Positions 14,921 to 29,390 of a DNA stretch of 64,000 bases are shown here, one piece after another. This DNA is from Spirochaetales bacterium (GTDB taxonomy: Bacteria > Spirochaetota > Leptospiria > Leptospirales > Leptonemataceae): contig JABTUL010000001.1 in NCBI GenBank assembly GCA_015075425.1, positions 1,302,001 to 1,366,000 of the forward strand, given 5' to 3'. The notes beneath the pieces are model-generated. The model saw only the letters and a program-made list of their open reading frames with translations. It had not been told where the DNA came from and did no database searches. Made by a program: the position numbers and the translations under genes. How positions within the stretch are numbered: the stretch's first letter is position 1; each line of letters begins with the position of its first letter.

Positions 14921-15858
14921 GGCTTACCCCGGATCAAGTTACGGAACAGGCGATCCGTTATGGCCATCTGTCCATCCTTAAACTGTAGATGAATTCCGTG
15001 CCGGCTTATAGACACAACACGAGCCTCTAAGAGAAAGCTCGATCCCTGCAGAGTAAAACGCAAGCTTCCGTCCGCGGCAGTTTCCGAACCAGAAATCAGG
15101 GCCCCGCCAGCGCTCACGTTGATCAATTCAACTCTTTCTCTATTGTAAGTGGCCGGGATGGAGAGGGGAAAACGAACATGCGCCCGTCTCTGGGGGGCGC
15201 GCCAGAGAAGAGTGTGCTGGTAGCGTGATTCCCCCAATGGCATGAGTTGCAAAGTATATCTTCCCTCTGTGCGATGGATTGCGGCCTCGCCGCTGAGCGG
15301 GTTGCTCATCTGTAGCACAAAGTATTCGGCGGTTTGCGATTGGAGTCTTCCTGCTTGCTGATTGTCCCGGTAGAAAACCGTTCCCGGTGGCAAATCGATG
15401 GAGGTAAAGGCTTCCAGTCCATCTTTGCGCGGTGGAAAATCCAATCGGTAAATCAGTCGGGCGAGTTGTGGGGTGCGCGCCATACGTTCGGCTTCAGCCT
15501 GGCTATTCAGATATTGTCGCAGGGCCAGGTAGAATGTCTGTTCCTCGCGGCAGAGGAGAGACAGGGATATTTCCGGATCGGGCGTAAAGGCGACAATTTT
15601 CTGAAGTAAATCGATTTCGCTTGCCGTAATTTTGCGCTCTTCGACCATAGCTTCAAAATTCAGCCGGGAATGCTGGATCAGTCGCTTTCGCCGTGACTGC
15701 CGGCGCAACTGATCCAGGCGAATCAAGAGCAGGAGAACCAGCACGAGCCCGGCAAAGAGACCCAGAATTTCCAGCGGTGAGGCCGGTCGGATTCCACCCG
15801 AAAGACTGGAAAAAAGCTGGTCCACGTTTTCCTGGTTCCAGCTTCTGATGGGCTGCAT
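14917..15858 (-). CDS. PilZ-domain membrane protein
   Basis: PilZ domains bind c-di-GMP. The 313-residue protein has one N-terminal membrane helix (about residues 27-43), a cytoplasmic helical linker, a beta-rich middle region and a C-terminal PilZ domain. The two c-di-GMP motifs look intact: R-x-x-x-R in RRAHVRFPL (about residue 222) and N-x-S-x-x-G in INVSAGGALI (about residue 244). The domain ends with VVSISRHGIHLQFKD. Its ATG overlaps head to head with the first codons of the YidD-like gene on the other strand. An HD-GYP protein at 60112 could act on the same messenger. Confidence 0.82.
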   Translation of the reverse strand: MQPIRSWNQENVDQLFSSLSGGIRPASPLEILGLFAGLVLVLLLLIRLDQLRRQSRRKRLIQHSRLNFEAMVEERKITASEIDLLQKIVAFTPDPEISLSLLCREEQTFYLALRQYLNSQAEAERMARTPQLARLIYRLDFPPRKDGLEAFTSIDLPPGTVFYRDNQQAGRLQSQTAEYFVLQMSNPLSGEAAIHRTEGRYTLQLMPLGESRYQHTLLWRAPQRRAHVRFPLSIPATYNRERVELINVSAGGALISGSETAADGSLRFTLQGSSFLLEARVVSISRHGIHLQFKDGQMAITDRLFRNLIRGKP

Positions 15859-16222
15859 TCTGCTTTTCTCTGGAAGCTGCGGCAGCGGTCAAACGTCAAA
15901 ACCGCTGCGGTTGATTCTGGATCGCCATGCCCGCCATACCCATCTGGACGGGCCCCGCTGCCCCATGTTTCCCTCCTGCGTGGCCTATGCCCGCCGATTG
16001 CTGGAGGAGCGTCCTTTCCTTGCTCCCTTTTACATAGCCGATCGCTTCTTTTTTCGGGAATGGGGTACGCTGTCCCGGCGTTACCACCGCGCTCCTGGTA
16101 ATTTGAGCTGTGATTTGCGCTACTGGGACCCGGTAGAGGAGCTCAGGCGGGATTTTAGACCTTCCTTTCTAAAAGAGGATTTTCAGGCGCAAAGAGATTG
16201 TCACAGGGACATAAGACAATAA
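15848..16222 (+). CDS. YidD-like short lipoprotein or membrane protein
   Basis: A 124-residue protein with a short hydrophobic start and possible lipobox (FSGSC, cysteine at residue 11). The core DGPRCPMFPSCVAYA matches the C-[RP]-[FM]-x-P-[ST]-C-x-x-Y-[AS] signature of YidD, the 70-residue membrane-protein-insertion efficiency factor. Here the motif is embedded in a longer protein with an arginine-rich second half (REWGTLSRRYHRAPG and WDPVEELRRDF) that standard YidD lacks. Its ATG overlaps the divergent PilZ gene by 11 nt, so the true start may be further in (for example the TTG near 15908). recJ follows after 4 nt. Confidence 0.55.
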   Translation: MGCILLFSGSCGSGQTSKPLRLILDRHARHTHLDGPRCPMFPSCVAYARRLLEERPFLAPFYIADRFFFREWGTLSRRYHRAPGNLSCDLRYWDPVEELRRDFRPSFLKEDFQAQRDCHRDIRQ

Positions 16223-18133: not shown

Positions 18134-18343
18134 TTACTGAATCCAGCGCCAGCTATCGTTATTGTGGTAGGGCGATGCTGTACCCCCCACGGGATGCAGC
18201 GGTGTTCTAACGGAAGCTTTTACACTTTCAAAGGGAACCGCCTGGCCAGCTCCCGGGGAGCGCAGCAGGAGCAGCACCGCTGAGAGGCCCAAAACCATGG
18301 TGGAAAAAGACAGAATGAGCATTATGCCCATGAGTGTTTTCAT
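18134..18343 (-). CDS. Small single-pass membrane protein ending the ccoNOP-like module
   Basis: A 69-residue protein with one N-terminal membrane helix (about residues 4-27, LMGIMLILSFSTMVLGLSAV) and a polar, histidine-containing tail. It starts inside the stop of the CcoP-like gene (ATGA, 18340-18343), which argues that it is real and cotranslated. It has the size and place of a small accessory subunit such as CcoQ or CcoS but shows no clear similarity to either. The competing open frame on the plus strand in this interval has no gene-like features. Confidence 0.55.
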   Translation of the reverse strand: MKTLMGIMLILSFSTMVLGLSAVLLLLRSPGAGQAVPFESVKASVRTPLHPVGGTASPYHNNDSWRWIQ

Positions 18344-18813
18344 TCACCCTTTTTGATGGAGCCGTTGCGGTCGGCAAGGAAATACAGGATCTGCCAGGCC
18401 TGAGCTTTTGACAGACTGGCCCCACCCATTGGAGGCATGATCTGGCCGGTCTTCGAATCTGCGGCCGAAATCCCGGTTGTAATCACGCGGAAAATGTCAC
18501 TTTCCTTATCTCCGTGAAGCCAGGTGGCATCGGCAAGGGAAGGGCCCACACCCCCCTCACGATTGGGGCCGTGGCAGGCAATACAGGCGGTCTTGTAGGC
18601 AGTCTCCCCCGCCGTCACTGCGTCAGCTGTTCGGTCCGGGATTTGCACCTCAGCGCGCACAACGAAGGTCCCGGTCTCATCCAGCAGAGCATTTTCCGGG
18701 TTTTCGTTTAGAAAGCCATGATAGAAAATTCCATAGAGCAAACCCCAGAGGAGAGCTCCCAGAAACAGGAACAGTATCCAGTTGGGCAATCCGGTCGCGT
18801 TGTTTTTTTCCAT
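18340..18813 (-). CDS. CcoP-like membrane-anchored monoheme cytochrome c
   Basis: This 157-residue protein has an N-terminal single helix preceded by T-G-L-P-N-W (about residues 8-32), which resembles the CcoP anchor that carries P-L-P-x-W. One class I cytochrome c domain follows, with heme motif CIACH at about 77 and a methionine ligand in MPPMGG at about 127. Authentic CcoP of cbb3 oxidase binds two hemes; this protein has one. It should carry electrons on the periplasmic side. It starts 2 nt after the CcoO stop and overlaps the last small gene by ATGA. Likely a subunit of the CcoN-like complex encoded upstream. Confidence 0.8.
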   Translation of the reverse strand: MEKNNATGLPNWILFLFLGALLWGLLYGIFYHGFLNENPENALLDETGTFVVRAEVQIPDRTADAVTAGETAYKTACIACHGPNREGGVGPSLADATWLHGDKESDIFRVITTGISAADSKTGQIMPPMGGASLSKAQAWQILYFLADRNGSIKKGE

Positions 18814-19479: not shown

Positions 19480-20826
19480 TTATCGGTCTTCCTCAACTAA
19501 CAAATATTCCTGTGAGCTGGAATCTTCTTTGCGCGCGCCAAAGAGTGAAAGGGGCAGAAGCAGCATTCCGGCCAGAGTCAAAACACGACCCAGAAAGTAA
19601 ACACTGCGCAGGCTGTACCAGTACTGTGCGGGCATTGAGTCGGTCGGATCGACGAATAGTTGCCCGGCGAATAGAACAGAAATCCAATTCTCCGATGAGT
19701 GAAAGGCCTGAATCGTACCCTGAATCACATTGGCCCCGAGGCTCAAGCCGAGGCCGAGGAGAACCAGCTGCCCGGTGCGTGCAGAAACGGGAATCTGCAA
19801 ACCGCGCGAGAACAGTAAAATTCCCGCGGGCAGGAGAAGCAGGAAGGCTGCCTGAACCAGATCCCGGCCGGTCAGGTAGGTGAAGCCAAAGTGGGCTGCA
19901 CCTGAGCGTAGTGATGAAATGGAAAAGACGATCGCGAGTACGACCAGGGCCACGGCGCTGAAACGTGCCAGCGGTTCGGGGCCAGCCCGCCAGAGGAGGA
20001 CTGCAGCGGCCAGAACGCTGATGGCAAATACGAGGCCGGTTACACTGCCCAGAGTCTGCAAGATGGGGTGGGCCGGGCCCATCAGAAGCCCGGACCATCC
20101 GGCCAGGGCTGCCGTAACGGCCAGAAGAATGACGGTGAGGGAGAGCGCATTCTCATCCGAACTGTTCCTCTGCCAGACTGAGTGCATGGCCACCGAAGGT
20201 AGTACAATTCCCGTACCGAGCAGGGCAAAGCGGTAGTATTCCTGCAGGCCTGCATCCTGTACTCCCTGAAATAACGAAATACTCAGCAGGGGATGGATGG
20301 GTAACCCTATGTTGCCCAGGAAATAGACGATGATCAAAGAAGCGCTGATGAAGATGAGCAAGCCGCTGGCAGATTGCACCTGCGTTTTTTTTCCCACTGT
20401 AAAGAGGACCACGGCCAGAAAAAGGACCAACGACAGCAGAACGCCGTTATCCAGAAGGAAAGGCAATTCTCCGTACTCCCGGCCGCTGTTGAACCGTAGC
20501 CAGATGGCCAGAATCCCACCGGTCACACTCAGGTTGAGTAACGCAACGGCAGCGAGACCCACCGGAGGCCAGGCCACGGTTTGTTTCTCTGCTCGGGAAA
20601 GAGTCAGGTAACCATGGGCAAACAGGAGATTCAGGCCTGCGCCAAAAATCAGGGCGGTGGCCAGCGCTGGCCGAATCTGGCCATATCCCAGGACATAGTT
20701 GTCCGGAATCTGATAGATAAGCTGCAACTGGTTTAAGATTTCCAGAAAAAGAGCGACGATGCCCCAGAGAGCAAAGAAATGAAGGTGCAGCCGAAGGATC
20801 GCCGGATAAGCTAAATATTTTTTCAT
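19480..20826 (-). CDS. CcoN-like subunit without oxidase metal ligands
   Basis: The 448-residue, roughly 12-helix protein follows CcoN (cbb3 oxidase subunit I) in order: an N-terminal helix ending in a Q-L pair, GQIRPALATALIFGAGLN (CcoN: G-R-L-R-P-L-H-T-x-A-V-I-F), GVQDAGLQEYYRFALLG (CcoN: G-V-Q-D-A-x-x-Q-W-W-Y-G-H-N), GPAHPILQTLG (CcoN: G-P-H-H then Q-T-L-G) and TGRDLVQ (CcoN: I-G-H-V-H-S-G). At the six ligand positions it has Leu55, Phe200, Ala252, His253, Arg321 and Leu323. Five of six histidines for heme b, heme b3 and CuB are therefore gone, and binuclear chemistry is excluded. It sits between a diheme cytochrome and CcoO/CcoP homologues behind ACIII. Probably a membrane scaffold; function unknown. 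Confidence 0.82.
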   Translation of the reverse strand: MKKYLAYPAILRLHLHFFALWGIVALFLEILNQLQLIYQIPDNYVLGYGQIRPALATALIFGAGLNLLFAHGYLTLSRAEKQTVAWPPVGLAAVALLNLSVTGGILAIWLRFNSGREYGELPFLLDNGVLLSLVLFLAVVLFTVGKKTQVQSASGLLIFISASLIIVYFLGNIGLPIHPLLSISLFQGVQDAGLQEYYRFALLGTGIVLPSVAMHSVWQRNSSDENALSLTVILLAVTAALAGWSGLLMGPAHPILQTLGSVTGLVFAISVLAAAVLLWRAGPEPLARFSAVALVVLAIVFSISSLRSGAAHFGFTYLTGRDLVQAAFLLLLPAGILLFSRGLQIPVSARTGQLVLLGLGLSLGANVIQGTIQAFHSSENWISVLFAGQLFVDPTDSMPAQYWYSLRSVYFLGRVLTLAGMLLLPLSLFGARKEDSSSQEYLLVEEDR

Positions 20827-20827
20827 G

Positions 20828-21664
20828 TTACCTTTGACCTGTGCTATTGATATAGTCCCGGATCTGATCCAGGTCTTCCTGAACCAGTGACGAAAAATCG
20901 GGTAACCAGCCCGTTTCCCCGTGGAAATCCCGGGTCAGATCAAGTCCGGATGTGGTGATGAATTTGCCGCACAGGCGATTTCCCGGTTCCCTGCAGGTAA
21001 CAAAGCCCGTCCGGATGTTTTGTCCCTCGCCGCGCAGACCATGGCAGCCGGCACAGTTCGCCTGGTAAAGCCGTGCGCCTGATGAATCATACAGCTCACG
21101 AGTCGCCCTGGTGGCAGTTACTGCTGGCGCGACCTGCAAATCGATAGCTTCTTTGAGGATTGAGGGATCGGGTGCTTTTTCACGCTCTGCCGGCAGGTTG
21201 AATCCCAGGATCCAGCGACGGTCGGCTGTCTTTGTATAGGCCTCCCGGGCTTCGCTGAAGTCTTTGCTCAGAGCTTCCACCTGCTTATCTCTGGCTTCAC
21301 CGCTTAACGGCTTGTGTTGCCCGAAAAGAAAATGGGCCATCTGCCAGCGAGCTTTATCCGTTAGCTGGTGGAAGGTGTGAGACTTCATCAGCGCCGTGCC
21401 CTGGGTCATGGCTTTGAAATAGCGCACGGGTGTGGCATCCGGGGATGGATCGGTCGTGAAGTTCGTGGCTGCTAAACCCTGGCTTTGCAGTTTACTGGCC
21501 TCGCTTCCTTTGCCATCGAAATCGATTCCGTGACAGCCTGCACAATTGGCTGAAGCATAGTGGATCGAACCGGAGCGTAGATCAGCGCGGGTGGGCTTTT
21601 CAATGAACTGATCTTTTTGCTGGCAGGCGAGCAGGATGAATGTACTTAAAATTACAGTTCTCAT
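20828..21664 (-). CDS. Diheme cytochrome c lipoprotein
   Basis: A 278-residue protein with a lipoprotein signal (ILLAC, cysteine at residue 14) and two cytochrome c domains, each with a CAGCH heme motif (about residues 41 and 205). The first is followed by GIDFDGKGSEAS and has methionines in the ALMKSHTF region. The second has GLRGEGQ. Between them lies a charged linker of about 80 residues. It starts 7 nt after actF and ends one base before the CcoN-like gene, so it links ACIII and the CcoNOP-like module in one transcript. It is likely an outer-leaflet or periplasmic electron carrier between the two. Confidence 0.85.
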   Translation of the reverse strand: MRTVILSTFILLACQQKDQFIEKPTRADLRSGSIHYASANCAGCHGIDFDGKGSEASKLQSQGLAATNFTTDPSPDATPVRYFKAMTQGTALMKSHTFHQLTDKARWQMAHFLFGQHKPLSGEARDKQVEALSKDFSEAREAYTKTADRRWILGFNLPAEREKAPDPSILKEAIDLQVAPAVTATRATRELYDSSGARLYQANCAGCHGLRGEGQNIRTGFVTCREPGNRLCGKFITTSGLDLTRDFHGETGWLPDFSSLVQEDLDQIRDYINSTGQR

Positions 21665-21671
21665 ATTATTC

Positions 21672-22898
21672 TCACTGGTGGAAGTGCAAGCACTCTTCCA
21701 GGCGGGGATCTTTTTTGGGGATCAGCGAAGAACGGCCCAGGGCATAGCCCATCACCAGCAGAAAAGCACCGATGATGAAGGCCAGAGCGCCAGCTTCCTG
21801 CCAGCTGAACATCACGAAATGTCCGTGATCCAGCGTGGGGTAGGCTATCCAGTACAGGTCCACAACCTGGCCCACCAGGATGAGAACCGCAACCCCGGCC
21901 ATATAATTGAAATTACGTTTGGATTCCCGCTTGATGATGAGAAAGAATGGGAGCACAAAGCGCAGCACGGGCAGGAGGAAACTCACATAGGCCCAGCCAC
22001 TGTCCCATTTGTATCCGCCACGGATGGAATAGAAGATGGTCTCTTCCGGAATGTGGCTGTACCAGATGAGTAAAAACTGGCTCACGGCTATGTAGCCCCA
22101 GAAAATCGTATGGCCCCAGAGGTACTTTCCCACATCATGAAGATGATTTTCGTTGAGGGTTTCACCGTAGTAACCATGCTTCTTCAGATACCAGATCCAG
22201 AGGATGATCGAAGCATAGACGGAGAGACCGGTGCCTGCAAACATATAAACGGCCCACATGGTGCTGAACCAGTGCGGTTCCAGGCTCAGGGTCAGGTCCC
22301 AGGAAGACATGCAGTAGGTCAGGGCAAAGAGCACCAGAAAGGCAGCGGAAATGCGTGCCAGCTTCCGCGTCGTTGAGACATCGCCATGCTCGTCCTGGGC
22401 CACGGACATCCGGTAAAAAATCAGGCCGAATACAACCCACAGACCGAGGGCAGCCAGATTGCGAATGATGAAAAACCACTTATCAAGCCAGGGTTTCTTA
22501 TGGTTGATGAGATGATCATCGGGCCTGGCTCGCGTCCAGTGACTGAACAGATCATCAAACCCCACAAGAAAAAGCACAAGAAGTAATACGATGAGGACAG
22601 GCAGAAACCAGACGTAGTTTTCCATGAGCCGGCGCATGGTGACAACCCAGGCCGCTCCACCCACATGAGCTATGGCGGAAAGAAAAATCGCACCGGCGAC
22701 CAGGAAGATTCCGAAAAGAATGGCCATGTACGCTGACATGTAAAGTCGGCTGTAACTGGCTCCTTCAGCCCCATGGGAATGCCAGGGAAAAACGACCTGG
22801 AGGGCAAGAGTTAAGAGCCCCACACCCATGAGGACCAGGGCAGTCAGGCGTAAACCTGAAGGCATCTTGAATTGTAACTTGGATTCGGCGGTATTCAT
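21672..22898 (-). CDS. actF: Alternative complex III subunit ActF
   Basis: ActF is one of the two large membrane subunits of alternative complex III, the quinol:cytochrome c oxidoreductase unrelated to bc1. The 408-residue protein has about ten membrane helices, a duplicated NrfD-remnant fold as in ActC, and family-like segments YVWFLPVLIVLLLVLF, YMSSWDLTLSLEPHWFSTMWAVY and PEETIFYSIRGGYKWDSGW. It lacks cofactor motifs, as expected. Overlaps actE by ATGA and is followed 7 nt later by the diheme lipoprotein. Confidence 0.9.
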   Translation of the reverse strand: MNTAESKLQFKMPSGLRLTALVLMGVGLLTLALQVVFPWHSHGAEGASYSRLYMSAYMAILFGIFLVAGAIFLSAIAHVGGAAWVVTMRRLMENYVWFLPVLIVLLLVLFLVGFDDLFSHWTRARPDDHLINHKKPWLDKWFFIIRNLAALGLWVVFGLIFYRMSVAQDEHGDVSTTRKLARISAAFLVLFALTYCMSSWDLTLSLEPHWFSTMWAVYMFAGTGLSVYASIILWIWYLKKHGYYGETLNENHLHDVGKYLWGHTIFWGYIAVSQFLLIWYSHIPEETIFYSIRGGYKWDSGWAYVSFLLPVLRFVLPFFLIIKRESKRNFNYMAGVAVLILVGQVVDLYWIAYPTLDHGHFVMFSWQEAGALAFIIGAFLLVMGYALGRSSLIPKKDPRLEECLHFHQ

Positions 22899-23491
22899 TT
22901 CTGGGCCTGCAAAGCGCGGATATAGTGCACGATCGTCCAGCGATCCGCTGGTTCGATCTGGGCCGCGTAGCCTTTCATGGCTCCCCGGCCCGTGGTCATA
23001 AGATGAAAAATCTTGCCGTCACTCCACTCGCGGGTGGGTGCATCGGCTGTGGAAAAAGCTGGAACCGCGATGGAATAGCGCGGCGTCACCGGGCCATCCC
23101 CTTTTCCAGTCAGGCCGTGGCATACACCGCAGTAGATTTCGTAACGATCTTTACCACGTGCCAGAGCCTCTGCCGTGCGCGGAACGGGATTGCGAAGTTC
23201 TGCCCCGGCTTTTTCAATGTCTGCCTGAGCATAACGATAAGGCGCGTAATTGCGAGGGGTTGCTCCCTCCGGCGGGACGCGAATTCCAGAATGATCTCCC
23301 CCCCAGGCTGGCAGCTCATCGGCCCCGCGGGTGTAACCCTCCCGGAAAACTTCTGTCTGGGTATAGTCCTCTTCCTGTGCCTCAACAGCATGCGAATCCT
23401 GCATATCGAGCAGCCAGTGTAGCCGGGTTTCCCGGGGCCGGTAGCAATAGAGCAGGGAAAAGACAATAAGAGCGATTGCGGAATACTTCAT
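22895..23491 (-). CDS. actE: Alternative complex III monoheme cytochrome c, ActE
   Basis: ActE is the lipid-anchored monoheme cytochrome c of ACIII that passes electrons on to the acceptor. In 198 residues there is an N-terminal hydrophobic segment with a possible lipobox (SLLYC), then the heme motif CGVCH at about residue 128. The likely methionine ligand is in RGAMKGYAAQI at about 172. The upstream stretch with R-N-Y-A-P-Y-R-Y is conserved in ActE. Overlaps actD and actF by four bases each. Confidence 0.9.
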   Translation of the reverse strand: MKYSAIALIVFSLLYCYRPRETRLHWLLDMQDSHAVEAQEEDYTQTEVFREGYTRGADELPAWGGDHSGIRVPPEGATPRNYAPYRYAQADIEKAGAELRNPVPRTAEALARGKDRYEIYCGVCHGLTGKGDGPVTPRYSIAVPAFSTADAPTREWSDGKIFHLMTTGRGAMKGYAAQIEPADRWTIVHYIRALQAQK

Positions 23492-24141
23492 GAATCTGCC
23501 TTTACCACGGTGATTTCGCTACCGCCCAGACCACTTAAAAAGGCCTGAACGTCCGCCTCATTGTAATTGGCGGAATCTGAAGGAATCCATAAACAGAAGC
23601 GATCATCGGTGATGCGCGGGTGCAATACTTTACGAGAGACTTTCGGGATTCGACCCAGTATATACATGACAGCGACGGTGGTCAGACCGCCCAGAAGCAC
23701 GGTCAATTCGAACATAATAGGGACCATCGCTGGCCAGGCAAACGTGGGCTTGCCGGAAATATTCAGGGGATAGGAATTCAGGTAAGGGATCGTACTTACC
23801 TGCTCGTGCACGGTAAACATCATTAAAAAAGCAACAATAGTTCCCGTAATTCCGGCAACAAACGTAGCATAGGGAACTTTGCTGCGGGTCAGTCCCATAT
23901 CAAACTCAAGGCCGTGAACCGGAAAAGGCGTCAGACAATCAAAATTCGTGTAACCTTTGTCGCGTGCAGCGCGTGCAGCCTTTTGTATGGCTTCCGGTGT
24001 ATTGAACAGGCCAAAAACCCCGGACTCGGTTTCCCTGTAGGTGTACTTAAAGAAATTTTCTTCCAGCCGTGCCCAGGCTTTTACCGGCGCCGCAAAAAAT
24101 GCATCCAGAGCTTTCTCAATTGTTTCCAGAATTTTATTCAT
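23488..24141 (-). CDS. actD: Alternative complex III subunit ActD
   Basis: ActD (DUF3341) is a small membrane subunit of ACIII. The 217-residue protein has an N-terminal cytoplasmic portion with GVFGLFNTPEAIQKAARAAR and the conserved FDCLTPFPVHGLEFDMGLTRSK, ending in R-S-K before two membrane helices (about 90-112 and 130-155). The C-terminal region KVLHPRITDDRFCLWIP matches the family. It lies 7 nt after actC and overlaps actE by ATGA. Confidence 0.92.
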   Translation of the reverse strand: MNKILETIEKALDAFFAAPVKAWARLEENFFKYTYRETESGVFGLFNTPEAIQKAARAARDKGYTNFDCLTPFPVHGLEFDMGLTRSKVPYATFVAGITGTIVAFLMMFTVHEQVSTIPYLNSYPLNISGKPTFAWPAMVPIMFELTVLLGGLTTVAVMYILGRIPKVSRKVLHPRITDDRFCLWIPSDSANYNEADVQAFLSGLGGSEITVVKADS

Positions 24142-24148
24142 AGAAGCC

Positions 24149-25534
24149 TCAGTGCCCGAACCCTTTTGCTTCCGGGGATTTGATCACTGTTTTCACCTCG
24201 GCAATGGCAATGGCCGGGAACAATCGCACAAACAGCAGGAAGAAGGTGAAAAACATGCCAAAAGAGCCTATCATGATCAGGTAGTCCACGACTGACGGAA
24301 AGAACATCCCCCACGAAGAAGGCAGAAAATCGCGATGTAAGGAAGTGACGACGATAACATAACGCTCGAACCACATCCCGATATTGACAAAGATACTGAT
24401 AATCCAGAGTGCAACGGGATTGGTGCGGATCTTCTTGAACCAGAAAAGTTGCGGTGTGATGACATTGCAGCTCATCATGATCCAGTAGGCCCACCAGTAT
24501 GGGCCAAAAGCCCGGTTGATGAAAGCAAAGACTTCAAAAGGAGAGCCGCTGTACCAGGCCATAAAAAATTCCGTGCCATAGGCCAGACCCACAAGGGAGC
24601 CGGTGAGCATGGTGATTTTGGCCATATTTTCCAGATGTTTTTCTGTAATATAGTCTTTGAAATTGAATAGTTCACGCATGATAATGAGCAGGGTGAGTAC
24701 CATACCGAAACCGGAAAAGATGGCCCCGATCACAAAATAGGGCGGGAAGATCGTGGTATGCCAGCCCGGAATGACTGAGGTGGCAAAGTCAAAGGATACG
24801 ATAGAATGCACGGAAAGCACCAGCGGAAAGGAAAGGCCTGCCAGGATCATCACCATGCTTTCATAATGGGCCCAGGCGCGGCTCGATCCTACCCAGCCTA
24901 AAGACAGAACAGAATAGACGCTTTTACGGAATTTCTGCCAGGCATTTTCTGGTTTGATGCGGTCGCGTATGGAAGCAAAGTCCGGCACCAGTCCTGAGTA
25001 CCAGAACACCAGGGAAATGATCAAATACGTGGATATGGCGAATACGTCCCAGACCAGCGGAGAACGAAAGTTGGGCCAGAGCACGCCCCGTTCGTTGGGG
25101 TAGGGCATGGCCCAGAAGATGTACCAGACCCGTCCCACATGGATGTTGGGATACAGTCCGGCGCAGGCCACAGCAAAAATCGTCATGGCTTCAGCGGAGC
25201 GATTGATCGCCGTCCGCCACTGCTGGCGGAAAACATAGAGAACGGCCGAGATGAGAGTCCCCGCATGTCCAATACCGATCCAGAAGACAAAATTGATGAT
25301 GTAGAAGCCCCAGCTGACCGGAACGTTGACGCCGCTCATACCCATGCCCGCACCGACAAGAACGCCCAGCGCCACCGTCTGCATGCCAAAGATGGAGAAG
25401 GCAATGAGAAAGGAGATCCACCAGAGCCGGTTGGGAAAAGTCTCAACAGGCTTTGCTATATCCCGGGTTGTATCTGTGTACGTTTTGCCGCCCGTTACCA
25501 GGGGGGCATTCAGTTCTGTGGACACGCTTTGCAT
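24149..25534 (-). CDS. actC: Alternative complex III quinol-oxidising membrane subunit ActC
   Basis: ActC is the NrfD/PsrC-like membrane subunit that holds the quinol site. In 461 residues about ten helices are readable. Landmarks: [29 protein letters not shown] (cited by its ends P-V-S-W to A-V-L-Y), [27 protein letters not shown] and [21 protein letters not shown], all typical. The histidine in G-H-A-G-T and nearby acidic residues form the quinol pocket in known structures. The gene starts 2 nt after the actB stop. Confidence 0.93.
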
Positions 25535-25536
25535 AC

Positions 25537-28500
25537 TTAGGCCTTATTCCTGATTTTCGCAAGATAGGTAACGGATGGTTCAACTTTGAGGAAATCGAGC
25601 ACTTTGTAGGCACGTTCATCCCTGGACAACCGGTTCACGCGGCTCTTCTCATCGTTGATATTGCCAAAAGAAATGGCCCCGGTGGGACACACTTCCTGGC
25701 AGGCCGTCACCATATCTCCGTCGCGGACAGACTCACTGCCCCTGGCTTTTGCTTCCTGCCGGGCTGTGGCAATACGCTGGACGCAGAAACTGCATTTTTC
25801 CATCACTCCGCGGCTGCGTACGGTCACATCGGGATTCAAGGCCAGTTGCTGCGGTGAACGCAGCTTGCGGACCAGGCCATCCATGTAGATCCAGTTTTCA
25901 AAAAAATTGAAACGACGGACTTTGTAAGGGCAGTTGTTTGCGCAGTATCGCGTACCTATACAGCGATTGTAGGTCATCTGATTGAGGCCCTCACTGTCAT
26001 GGGTGGTTGCGGCCACCGGGCAGACAGTTTCACAGGGAGCATTTTCGCAATGCTGACAGAGCATGGGCTGGTAAGCAACATCGGGATTTTTTTCATCACC
26101 ACTGTAGTAGCGATCGATGCGCAACCAGTGCATCTCCCGACCCATCAGGACTTCATCCGGACCCACCATGGGGACATTGTTTTCTGTATGACAGCTTGTT
26201 ACGCAGGCGTTGCAACCTGTGCAGGAGGTGAGGTCAATGACCATGTGCCAGCGCATACCGGTGTACTGCCAGGCAGGCATGAGGCTGGCATCCTTGGGGT
26301 AGTGGATCTTTTCCGGTTTGAACTGGCCGGGATTTTTCTTGAACTCATCCAGGTTCGCTTCCAGAATGATTGGCCTGTCGTACTGGCTGGATCCGCCGTA
26401 GGGAGCATTGGGCACGGAATCAGGCGCAAAAAATGCTTTATCTTCTTTATTGTATCCGTCGCGGTAGACGGTTTGCGTACAGGGAATCTCCACACGGTCG
26501 CCCGTTTTTTCCGTACTCACTGACAGGCCGCTTAGCTGAAGACCTGTTGCCTCCAGTGCGCCCAGAGCCAGTCCATTGGCTCCAACCCTGTTGCCCGTTT
26601 TTCCGGCGGCTTCGCGTCCATACCCGAGAGCCACAGTCAGGCTTTCCGGGTGGAGTCCGGGCTGCAGCAGCACCGGAAGGCGCAGACTGCCATGGCCGGT
26701 TTTTATTTCGAGGATTTCGCCCTGCTTCCAGCCCTGCTTGCGCGCCGTTTCCGGCAGCACACAGACGTGATTGCCCCAGACCGTCTTGGTGATGGGATCG
26801 GGAAGTTCCTGGCGATAGGCATTGTTGGCTCCGGAACCGTCGAGCATCGAAAGACTGTAATAGGGGCCGAGGCGCATCCCCCCGGCTGCGGGCAATGTGG
26901 CGGGCAATGTGTCCAGAGCACCGGCCTTGCGATTGGCGGCTGTACCATTTCTCCTGCTCTGGCCCGGAGCATAAAACCCTGTTTGCAGAAAGGAAGTCCA
27001 GAAAGCTTCTCCCCTTGCGGCCCAGCGCCCGCGCAGGAAGTCATAGAAACGAGTCGCACCGCCCAGGGAGCCTCCGGAGAAAGCAATCAGGTAATCTTCA
27101 AACGACCGGGTTTCATACAGCGGCCGGATAACCGGTTGCACAATACCATAAATTTCTTTTTGAAATTCCAGATCACCCCAGTTTTCCAGGTAGTGATTGA
27201 GTGGCAGGGCCATAGCAGCGGCAACGGACGTCTCATCCAGCCGGTCTGTCAGTTGGACGATGGGCGTGCCCCCCAGGTCCTCCGCCTTGAGTCCCGGTAC
27301 GTGGTAGAGCGGGTTGACCCCGGATAGAATAATGGCTCCGTAAGCGCCGCGCTTGATTTCAGAAAGGAGGTTCTTAAGTTCGCGATCGTTCATCCCCGCA
27401 GAAAGGAAGAGGGAATTCTGGTAGTCCACGGTGATTCCATCGTTGCCCAGCATGCTGTTTAAAAGATTTACGGCCACTTGCAGCTCCGGCCCGGATTGCA
27501 CTCCGCCTGCCAGCACCAGACTCCTGCCGCGCTCACGGGATAGTTCGCCGGCAATCTTTTTCAGTGCATCTGCCGGGATGCCCAGGTAGTCAGCCACTCG
27601 GGCGGGAAGGAAAGCGGAAAGATCTTTGCCTGCGGTAAGACCATGGTTTTCATCAAGCTCTGCGGCAATACTCAGAGCCGTGATGAGTGCATCACCCGGA
27701 CGAACGGCAAACCGTTCATCGGCATTGCCTCCGGTTACGCTGAACATGGATTCGATTACGATCAGCCGATTCATTTCTTTAGCCCGGCGGATATTGCGGG
27801 CCTGAGCAAAGGCATGGGTGAAACGGGCCGGCTGGATGTGTGTTCCCAGAAAATCGGCATCAAAAGAAACGACAAGATTGGCACGGTCAAAACGGTAGTC
27901 GGGTAGCAGGCGCTGACCGTAACTCAATTCCTGACCCTGAGCCACCTGGCGCCAGGTGGCATCAGCAGACCACTCCACATGCTTTCCGCCGGGATTGGCC
28001 TGTAAAAATTCTGTAACCAGGGCCCGACTGGATGGCCCCTGCAAAGGATTGGTCCAGAGTAAGTAGTTACCTTTTTTTATTAGATTGCGAGCTGCGGCAA
28101 CGACTTCAGCAGGCGCTGCCTTTTTCTTTTTTCCCTTCTCCAGAAGAACCGGCCGGCGCAAGCGATCCGGATCGTAAAGGTCCAGTAAAGAAGCGATTGT
28201 AGATGCTGATGCCCCGCCATTTGTTCCGGGAAAGCCAGCATTTCCGGCCAGCTTCACCGGCCGGCCTTCCCGGGTCCGCACGGTCAGCCCGGTTCCGTCC
28301 GGCGCCGTGGTGGAATAGAAAAGCGGCACGCCGGGTGTCATTTCCGGAGGCTGGATGACAGCGGGCACGATGCGTTCGACGGGTTTGCGACAGGCTGCCG
28401 TGGTCATCACAGCACCCGCGCCCATGAATTTCAAAAAGTTCGCCCGGCTGAGCCGGGAATCCGCCGCTTCAGCAGCCATTTCATTGCGGGAAGTCTGGAA

Positions 28501-28578
28501 TTCCGGCTTTTGCCACTGGTTGGCCTGGCCGGATCTCTCCGCGAGCGACAGCCAGTAATGTTTCTTTTCTTTATCCAT
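25537..28578 (-). CDS. actB: Alternative complex III iron-sulfur/molybdopterin-like subunit ActB
   Basis: ActB joins a molybdopterin-oxidoreductase-like domain without cofactor to a four-cluster iron-sulfur domain on the periplasmic side. The 1013-residue protein has a degenerate twin-arginine-type signal ([15 protein letters not shown], residues about 43-57) followed by cysteine 62. The B1 domain runs to about 770. The B2 domain shows [48 protein letters not shown] and CSFCVQR, then CQEVCPTGA, giving one [3Fe-4S] and three [4Fe-4S] clusters in homologues. Located between actA and actC with 2-12 nt gaps. Confidence 0.94.
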
Positions 28579-28590
28579 TCCTGTTCCTTC

Positions 28591-29151
28591 TCAATAGTGA
28601 CAAGTGCCGCATTCTGTGATTTTGACTGTTACGTTGTTTCCGGGCGGTTTTTCCTGTTCCGTGAAATCGCGGTGACAATTCACGCACCAGCCCATATTGA
28701 AATCTACCGCTACATGCACTTTATCCATAGCAGCGACATCGCCATGGCACTGCTCACAGGACAGGCCCCGAGCAATGTGTGGCTTGTGGGCAAATCGAAC
28801 ATGGTCCGGCAGGTCATGCACCTTCACCCAGGCCACGGGTTTACCCTGACGGTAACTTTGTTTAAGGTATTGAATATCCTGGCTGTCCGGAGCTACATGC
28901 TCATGGCATTTCATACAGGTGGCCAGATCCGGAACGACTGCCGTTGGCGATTTTTCCACTCCATAGTGACAGAACTGGCAATTGATCTGTAAGTCACCGG
29001 CATGAATTTTGTGGCTGAAAGCGATCGGCTGGTCGGGCTGGTACCCTTCATACTTGGCATCACTGGCAATCAGGTAAATGGGCCCTCCCACCAGAATCAA
29101 AAGCAGGAGAAGCTTAATTCCGTGTTTTTTTGCGATGCGAATTATGGCCAT
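28591..29151 (-). CDS. actA: Alternative complex III pentaheme cytochrome ActA
   Basis: ActA is the membrane-anchored pentaheme cytochrome c of ACIII. From the ATG at 29151 (preferred to the TTG at 29187) it has 186 residues with one N-terminal helix (about 10-28) and five heme motifs: CQFCH, CMKCH, CEQCH, CVNCH and CGTCH. Histidines in FSHKIHAG and FAHKPHIARG are the usual distal ligands. It is the first gene of the operon; the next is actB after 12 nt. Confidence 0.94.
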   Translation of the reverse strand: MAIIRIAKKHGIKLLLLLILVGGPIYLIASDAKYEGYQPDQPIAFSHKIHAGDLQINCQFCHYGVEKSPTAVVPDLATCMKCHEHVAPDSQDIQYLKQSYRQGKPVAWVKVHDLPDHVRFAHKPHIARGLSCEQCHGDVAAMDKVHVAVDFNMGWCVNCHRDFTEQEKPPGNNVTVKITECGTCHY

Positions 29152-29390
29152 TCGTGTTGTTCCAATTGGGGCCAGAAATTTTAGCAAAAAGTTGCTGTCA
29201 ATAGAATCTGGTTTTTTTCTGCCAGAAGGGCAGTAAACCTGACGTGCTGACAGCTGACCGCTGGTAATGTCCCGATGGCGTTACATTCTTGCCTGATTCG
29301 CTGGCCTGAAAATTGCTATCGTAAGTGTAAGATAACATCTTCCGGAGAATTTTGAGAACAAATCTCAATAGCTGCGGATGAAGGATACAG
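29152..29390. promoter_or_regulatory. Divergent promoter region between actA and clpB
   Basis: This 239-nt interval separates the two divergent genes and is the longest non-coding stretch in the window. It must hold both promoters. The pentamer CTGAC occurs three times in direct order at 29239, 29247 and 29254, a possible regulator-binding array. Nearer clpB, TAACAT (29333-29338) is a fair -10 match without a well-placed -35. clpB has a good ribosome site (AAGGA, 29381-29385) 5-6 nt before its ATG. Toward actA, TTGACA and TAAAAT occur but only 12 nt apart. No CIRCE-type heat-shock operator was seen. Confidence 0.45.

Follow-up and report, generated by a model that had tools for sequence, protein, structure and literature searches.

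A CcoN homologue without heme and copper ligands is encoded within the alternative complex III operon of one family of Spirochaetota

The window, a stretch of 64,000 nucleotides from a Spirochaetales bacterium, carries on its minus strand an operon for alternative complex III (ACIII) that comprises actABCDEF, with a penta-heme ActA and a mono-heme ActE. It continues with four further genes, three of which resemble ccoN, ccoO, and ccoP of the cbb3 oxidase. We refer to the proteins that these three encode as NL (the ligand-less CcoN-like protein), OL, and PL, and to the family of uncultured, Leptospirales-like Spirochaetota in which they were compared as f1. From the first gene of the operon to the last, the features are as follows.

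28591..29187, minus strand: ActA, penta-heme cytochrome c of ACIII with five CxxCH motifs
25537..28578, minus strand: ActB, molybdopterin-like/FeS subunit of ACIII
24149..25534, minus strand: ActC, NrfD-like membrane subunit of ACIII (Pfam NrfD, E 3e-25)
23488..24141, minus strand: ActD of ACIII
22895..23491, minus strand: ActE, mono-heme cytochrome c of ACIII
21672..22898, minus strand: ActF, membrane subunit of ACIII; the act clusters of f1 and its sister families conserve both its position and its sequence
20828..21664, minus strand: first gene of the added module, encoding a cytochrome c in which a lipobox-like LLAC accompanies two CxxCH motifs
19480..20826, minus strand: NL, CcoN-like ligand-less protein of 448 amino acids with 12 transmembrane (TM) helices
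18816..19496, minus strand: OL, CcoO-like mono-heme c protein with one TM helix and a CxxCH motif (Pfam FixO, PF02433, E 8e-19)
18340..18813, minus strand: PL, encoded by the final gene of the operon, a CcoP-like mono-heme c protein that has a FixP_N-like anchor and retains both CxxCH and the MP motif

Adjacent genes overlap or are separated by short gaps, most within tens of bases, and the overlap between the OL and NL genes is 17 bases. The order NL-OL-PL matches the ccoN-ccoO-ccoP order of cbb3 operons. Downstream of PL there is usually an opposing gene. At 15848-16222, next to a recJ-like gene, lies a gene for a short protein whose GPRCPMFPSC motif is YidD-like; this pair is found again behind several orthologous operons (L030, L031, L032, and L038).

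The NL reading frame is intact and encodes 448 residues on the minus strand (20826-19480); the plus strand of 19480-20826 has stops throughout. Window NL matched the NCBIfam ccoN model TIGR00780 over its N-terminal half only (45 bits, E 7e-12), below the curated cut-off of 583 bits, and a Pfam search with window NL gave no match, COX1 included, whereas eight of its orthologues pass the Pfam COX1 cut-off. Sequence comparison with the PDB matched it to the solved CcoN 3mk7_A (E 4e-9). Aligned with hhalign, a profile of 20 NL orthologues and one of 23 canonical CcoN sequences matched over their full length (475 columns, probability 99.95%, E 4e-38). An AlphaFold2 model of NL made from the family alignment contains 12 long helices (pLDDT 79.8, pTM 0.85). 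When this model was compared with the PDB by Foldseek, the top seven matches were all CcoN chains (TM 0.72 to 0.80), which come from five cbb3 entries and rank above nitric oxide reductases and other oxidases. With the family alignment, NL is unambiguously a full-length homologue of CcoN in sequence and fold. An earlier note on this DNA, made from the sequence alone, had claimed that the protein tracks CcoN over its whole length and had proposed structure prediction as a check; the hhalign result and the best structural match, a CcoN chain at TM 0.80, agree with that claim.

To describe the ligand sites, we use the Pseudomonas stutzeri CcoN numbering, in which we take the six ligands to be H60, H207, H257, H258, H345, and H347. 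The corresponding positions in window NL, and its most conserved stretch, are as follows.

20662..20664, minus strand: L55, in the column of the heme b histidine H60
20467..20484, minus strand: codons of G115-R-E-Y-G-E120, a periplasmic-side loop and the most conserved NL stretch, matching KEYAELEW of CcoN
20227..20229, minus strand: F200, in the column of the CuB histidine H207
20089..20094, minus strand: S245-G246, in the columns of the CuB histidine pair H257 and H258
19855..19863, minus strand: D322-L-V324, in the columns of H-V-H (H345 and H347, the heme b3 and heme b histidines)

In the family alignment, histidine occupies each of the six columns in none of the 20 NL orthologues and in all 23 canonical CcoN sequences of the same class. 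The active site is affected as well. The column of the cross-linked tyrosine in TM7 (Y251) holds A239 in window NL, that of the active-site glutamate in TM9 (E323) holds V300, and both are aliphatic in 18 of 20 orthologues. At the heme b3 ligand position, 16/20 orthologues have Asp. The commonest histidine column anywhere in the family reaches only 9/20; thus, NL has no substitute ligand set. A conserved set of Met or Cys was also not found in the alignment of the 20 orthologues. Identity to window NL is mostly 22-31% among the 20 orthologues, and losses common to sequences this divergent are not due to chance. NL fails the test that defines CcoN and therefore should not bear that name.

Alignment register required some care. 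Joint MAFFT, merged-profile MAFFT, and hhalign alignments were all tried, and none restored the histidines. A pairing of GAAHFG with GHVHAG, which sets H312 on a ligand column, appeared with window NL and three CcoNs only and was overruled by the family alignments; few-sequence alignments are misleading for the NL register, and we let the family alignments decide. The inspection of the six columns with HMM tools, a check proposed in the earlier note, thus upheld its central claim of a CcoN homologue without heme and copper ligand histidines, and its positions L55 and F200 were correct. The other four of its six positions were mis-registered. The note had read Ala252 and His253 as the H-H pair, but the GPAH at 250-253 is not GPHH, which aligns instead to G-W-S-G (containing S245 and G246), and its Arg321 and Leu323, given for H-V-H, are each off by one from D322 and V324. 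It had also stated that NL contains no H-x-H; one occurs near the start of TM1 (H14-L-H16), is not conserved, and lies outside the ligand sites.

The partner proteins keep their c-heme motifs. OL aligns with canonical CcoO by hhalign (E 3e-37) and retains CxxCH in 20/20 orthologues, and CxxCH is present in all PL orthologues; the ordinary CcoP of the same class is, like PL, mono-heme. The Met of the CcoO motif S-x-M-P-x-Y, presumably the distal heme ligand, is found in 22 of 23 canonical CcoO sequences, versus 1 of 20 OL sequences at the same column. The next column is an invariant His in OL (20/20; His154 in the window, and likewise in the OL of L025-L041, L044, and L080). We predict from this that the OL heme c is bis-His ligated, a reading that we keep as an inference because the histidine is offset by one column and is placed without coordinates. 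Orthologues of the cytochrome c upstream of NL have one or two CxxCH motifs. Together with the five of ActA and the one of ActE, the window operon has ten c-heme motifs, versus six in sister operons.

We searched 296 genomes of the phylum for NL with a family profile. Scores were 380 to 634 bits in f1 and at most 203 bits for canonical CcoN, with nothing between. The ligand-less protein is present in 20/22 genomes and 12/13 genera of f1, and the act contigs of the two genomes without it stop before the module. ActABCDEF-cytochrome c-NL-OL-PL is constant in order and strand in every f1 genome in which the region is assembled. For 19 of the 20 genomes, the contig that carries ActF continues directly into the module; for the other, the contig (L033) starts within NL. 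These results agree with the earlier note, which had described the gene as coupled to ccoO- and ccoP-like genes beside ACIII, and its suggestion to look for relatives with the same losses in ACIII operons yielded 20 orthologues, all of which have lost all six histidines. Beyond this phylum, the search consisted of a two-pattern scan of a named genome collection with a six-sequence NL alignment, which matched 11 loci; window NL alone matched none of its contigs. All 11 are in metagenome-assembled genomes, labeled Leptospiraceae, Leptospirales, Spirochaetia, Spirochaetaceae, or just "bacterium," with Leptospirales or Spirochaetia on most. A tblastn search of plasmids found ordinary ccoN only and no NL.

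ACIII itself is more widespread, occurring in 44 of 48 genomes of the class. In the sister families examined (f2 to f6), nothing oxidase-like follows ActF, and the downstream genes are unrelated. Since sister ACIII operons are without the module, the four genes, three of them derived from cbb3, are most simply explained as having joined the ACIII operon on the f1 lineage, in one family. Phylogenetic trees support one origin of the NL/OL module. NL sequences group as one clade with 100/100 support, separated by a very long stem from all canonical CcoN, including those of Shewanella and Hymenobacter, and OL likewise forms one fully supported clade on a long stem. Both duplication of a resident ccoNOP and import are compatible with the tree.

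NL evolves fast compared to canonical CcoN, and the end branch of window NL is 2.1 changes per site. The NL genes are nonetheless under purifying selection. In close pairs, dN/dS is about 0.03-0.05, an approximate figure given a dS of about 1 to 3, and the values for OL and PL are similar; one more distant NL pair gave 0.18. The contention of the earlier note that the gene is intact, in frame, and no decaying pseudogene is consistent with these ratios and with the 20 intact orthologues.

What is conserved in NL lies mainly on one side of the membrane. Of the 47 columns with at least 80% identity, 40 are periplasmic, in loops or outer helix halves (P = 9.5e-6, computed over columns that are not independent), a skew that is absent from canonical CcoN. 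In the loop of G115 to E120, G115, R116, G119, and E120 are each found in 20/20 orthologues and E117 in 16/20. The invariant polar residues are G115-R116-x-x-G119-E120, N172, D191, and Y198, and a conserved charged cluster consists of R116, E117, E120, D126, D191, E196, and R199. We take the KEYAELEW glutamates of CcoN to lie at the Ca2+/heme-propionate site that adjoins CcoO in cbb3. Conservation in NL is lowest in the cytoplasmic half, which holds no conserved acidic residue. This periplasmic skew is expected if a cytochrome interface has been kept while the core drifts freely.

Our preferred reading, to which operon and homology lend a reasonable likelihood, is that NL is a redox-silent membrane scaffold for extra c-hemes that extend the electron exit of ACIII; on this reading, an oxidase that no longer works has apparently been put to new use in wiring electrons out of the complex. 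Of the roles suggested in the earlier note, holding cytochromes together fits best. Proton conduction fits poorly because NL no longer has the residues of the active site and is least conserved in its cytoplasmic half. A quinol contact is possible. The fuller scheme, in which a whole C-type oxidase was absorbed into ACIII as a non-catalytic exit arm with about ten c-hemes, the extra ones docked on a cofactor-free subunit I, has in our view slightly better than an even chance of being right. In the preferred reading, ccoN, ccoO, and ccoP of a C-type oxidase, together with a c-type cytochrome gene, would have been appended to the ACIII operon in a single family, and the CcoN among them would have given up its active-site residues as well as heme b, heme b3, and CuB. 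The periplasmic face of NL would still dock OL and PL and anchor both beside ACIII. Electrons from quinol could then pass from the FeS centers of ActB to the ActA hemes, ActE, the diheme cytochrome, and the OL and PL hemes, and from there to a soluble cytochrome c or a terminal oxidase (caa3 or a separate, true cbb3). By exchanging Met for His, OL would have gained a heme of lower potential, as there is no heme b behind it to reduce.

The terminal oxidase does not appear to be fixed. The canonical ccoNOP set is located elsewhere in the genome, apart from the NL operon, and in inventories of draft genomes NL is found both where the sole detected COX1 match is caa3 (G010) and where it is cbb3 (G017). 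The module is therefore not tied to one oxidase and probably serves general electron output.

The charged cluster is perhaps more than a bare scaffold needs, and it could form a binding or ion site. NL may instead translocate ions or bind quinol as an accessory subunit of ACIII, with a channel or pocket lined by the periplasmic-side charged residues. The invariant polar residues would suit such a function, and ACIII already has cofactor-free, NrfD-like membrane subunits that interact with quinones (PMC8076601). We nevertheless consider this unlikely, as the Tyr251 and Glu323 columns are hydrophobic, the poorly conserved cytoplasmic half is where proton uptake would start, and the conserved cluster consists largely of residues already conserved in CcoN.

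Membership of NL, OL, and PL in ACIII is suggested by their operon linkage, and a separate cytochrome complex merely co-expressed with ACIII, such as a shuttle to another periplasmic acceptor, has to be weighed against it. The additional c-heme motifs, as many as four, and the lack of a fixed oxidase partner would be in keeping with such a complex, but the gene overlaps, the tight spacing, and the constant position directly after ActF argue against it, and we regard it as distinctly improbable. It is more doubtful still that NL is catalytic, with other residues now binding heme or some other metal. The fold is retained, the heme b3 column is usually Asp, and E120, D191, and Y198 are invariant; however, neither a histidine column above 9/20 nor a conserved Met or Cys set is available, and we know of no Asp-ligated heme in a heme-copper oxidase fold. 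That NL is a pseudogene, a frameshift, or an assembly artifact can be dismissed despite its fast evolution, as sequencing error and decay are ruled out by 20 intact genes from independent assemblies and a dN/dS far below 1.

Compared with known systems, NL shares with CcoN the 12-TM fold, full-length profile homology, and periplasmic loop motifs, among them the equivalents of E122/E125, and its operon shares with cbb3 the CcoO and CcoP homologues in the same order. Unlike CcoN, it is linked to ACIII and retains none of the six heme and copper ligands, nor the Tyr of the cross-link or the Glu of the active site. CydB of cytochrome bd is likewise poor in heme and paralogous to a respiratory membrane subunit that carries heme; its fold, however, is unrelated, and it pairs with its heme-bearing paralogue, whereas NL is encoded apart from its own.

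The ACIII of Rhodothermus marinus and Flavobacterium johnsoniae consists, as here, of ActA-F with 5 + 1 c-hemes. ACIII genes often precede oxidase genes, and ACIII-oxidase supercomplexes form (PMC5928083, PMC8361435). The operon described here differs in that ActF is followed by a ligand-less, cbb3-derived c-heme module rather than a working oxidase. In ACIII, quinol electrons travel via ActB and ActA/ActE, and the exit hemes are lineage specific: in R. marinus, electron transfer to caa3 is direct (PMC5928083) and the exit heme is heme c of caa3, while in F. johnsoniae the last step probably runs via the sixth heme and a mobile ActA domain, ActE being dispensable (PMC8552683). An extra c-heme at the ACIII exit, dependent on lineage, is thus a feature common to these systems and ours, but here the extra hemes come from CcoO and CcoP homologues together with a 12-TM oxidase-like scaffold.

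An earlier description of a ligand-less subunit I was not found in the open-licence literature. Judged by its sequence, NL is a new form of the heme-copper superfamily fold, non-catalytic and encoded in an ACIII operon. Few catalytic cores of respiration are as conserved as heme-copper subunit I, and a ligand-free family under selection shows that its scaffold can be retained for a purpose other than reducing O2 or NO. The finding bears on how electrons exit ACIII, which varies among the organisms studied so far. It also points to an annotation hazard, since several NL orthologues pass the Pfam COX1 cut-off and genome surveys would take them for an additional cbb3 oxidase.

Several other oxidase-related genes were noted. 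L004:1450-1875 encodes a 4-TM protein of 141 amino acids that resembles the first helices of heme-copper subunit I and has a T-H-V-H motif, and G004, G012, and G018 have further COX1 matches that are short and weak. L003:1417-4355 encodes a NorB-like heme-copper protein of 530 amino acids and, immediately after it, a cytochrome b-like protein that has cysteine motifs of the ferredoxin type. In G005, L100:561-2814 holds a second divergent CcoN with all six histidines, transcribed away from its ccoO; it groups near Shewanella and Hymenobacter and was possibly acquired. In G003, the canonical ccoN lies in two frames (C1:52443-53560), through a frameshift or an assembly error, and the NL gene of the same genome is intact.
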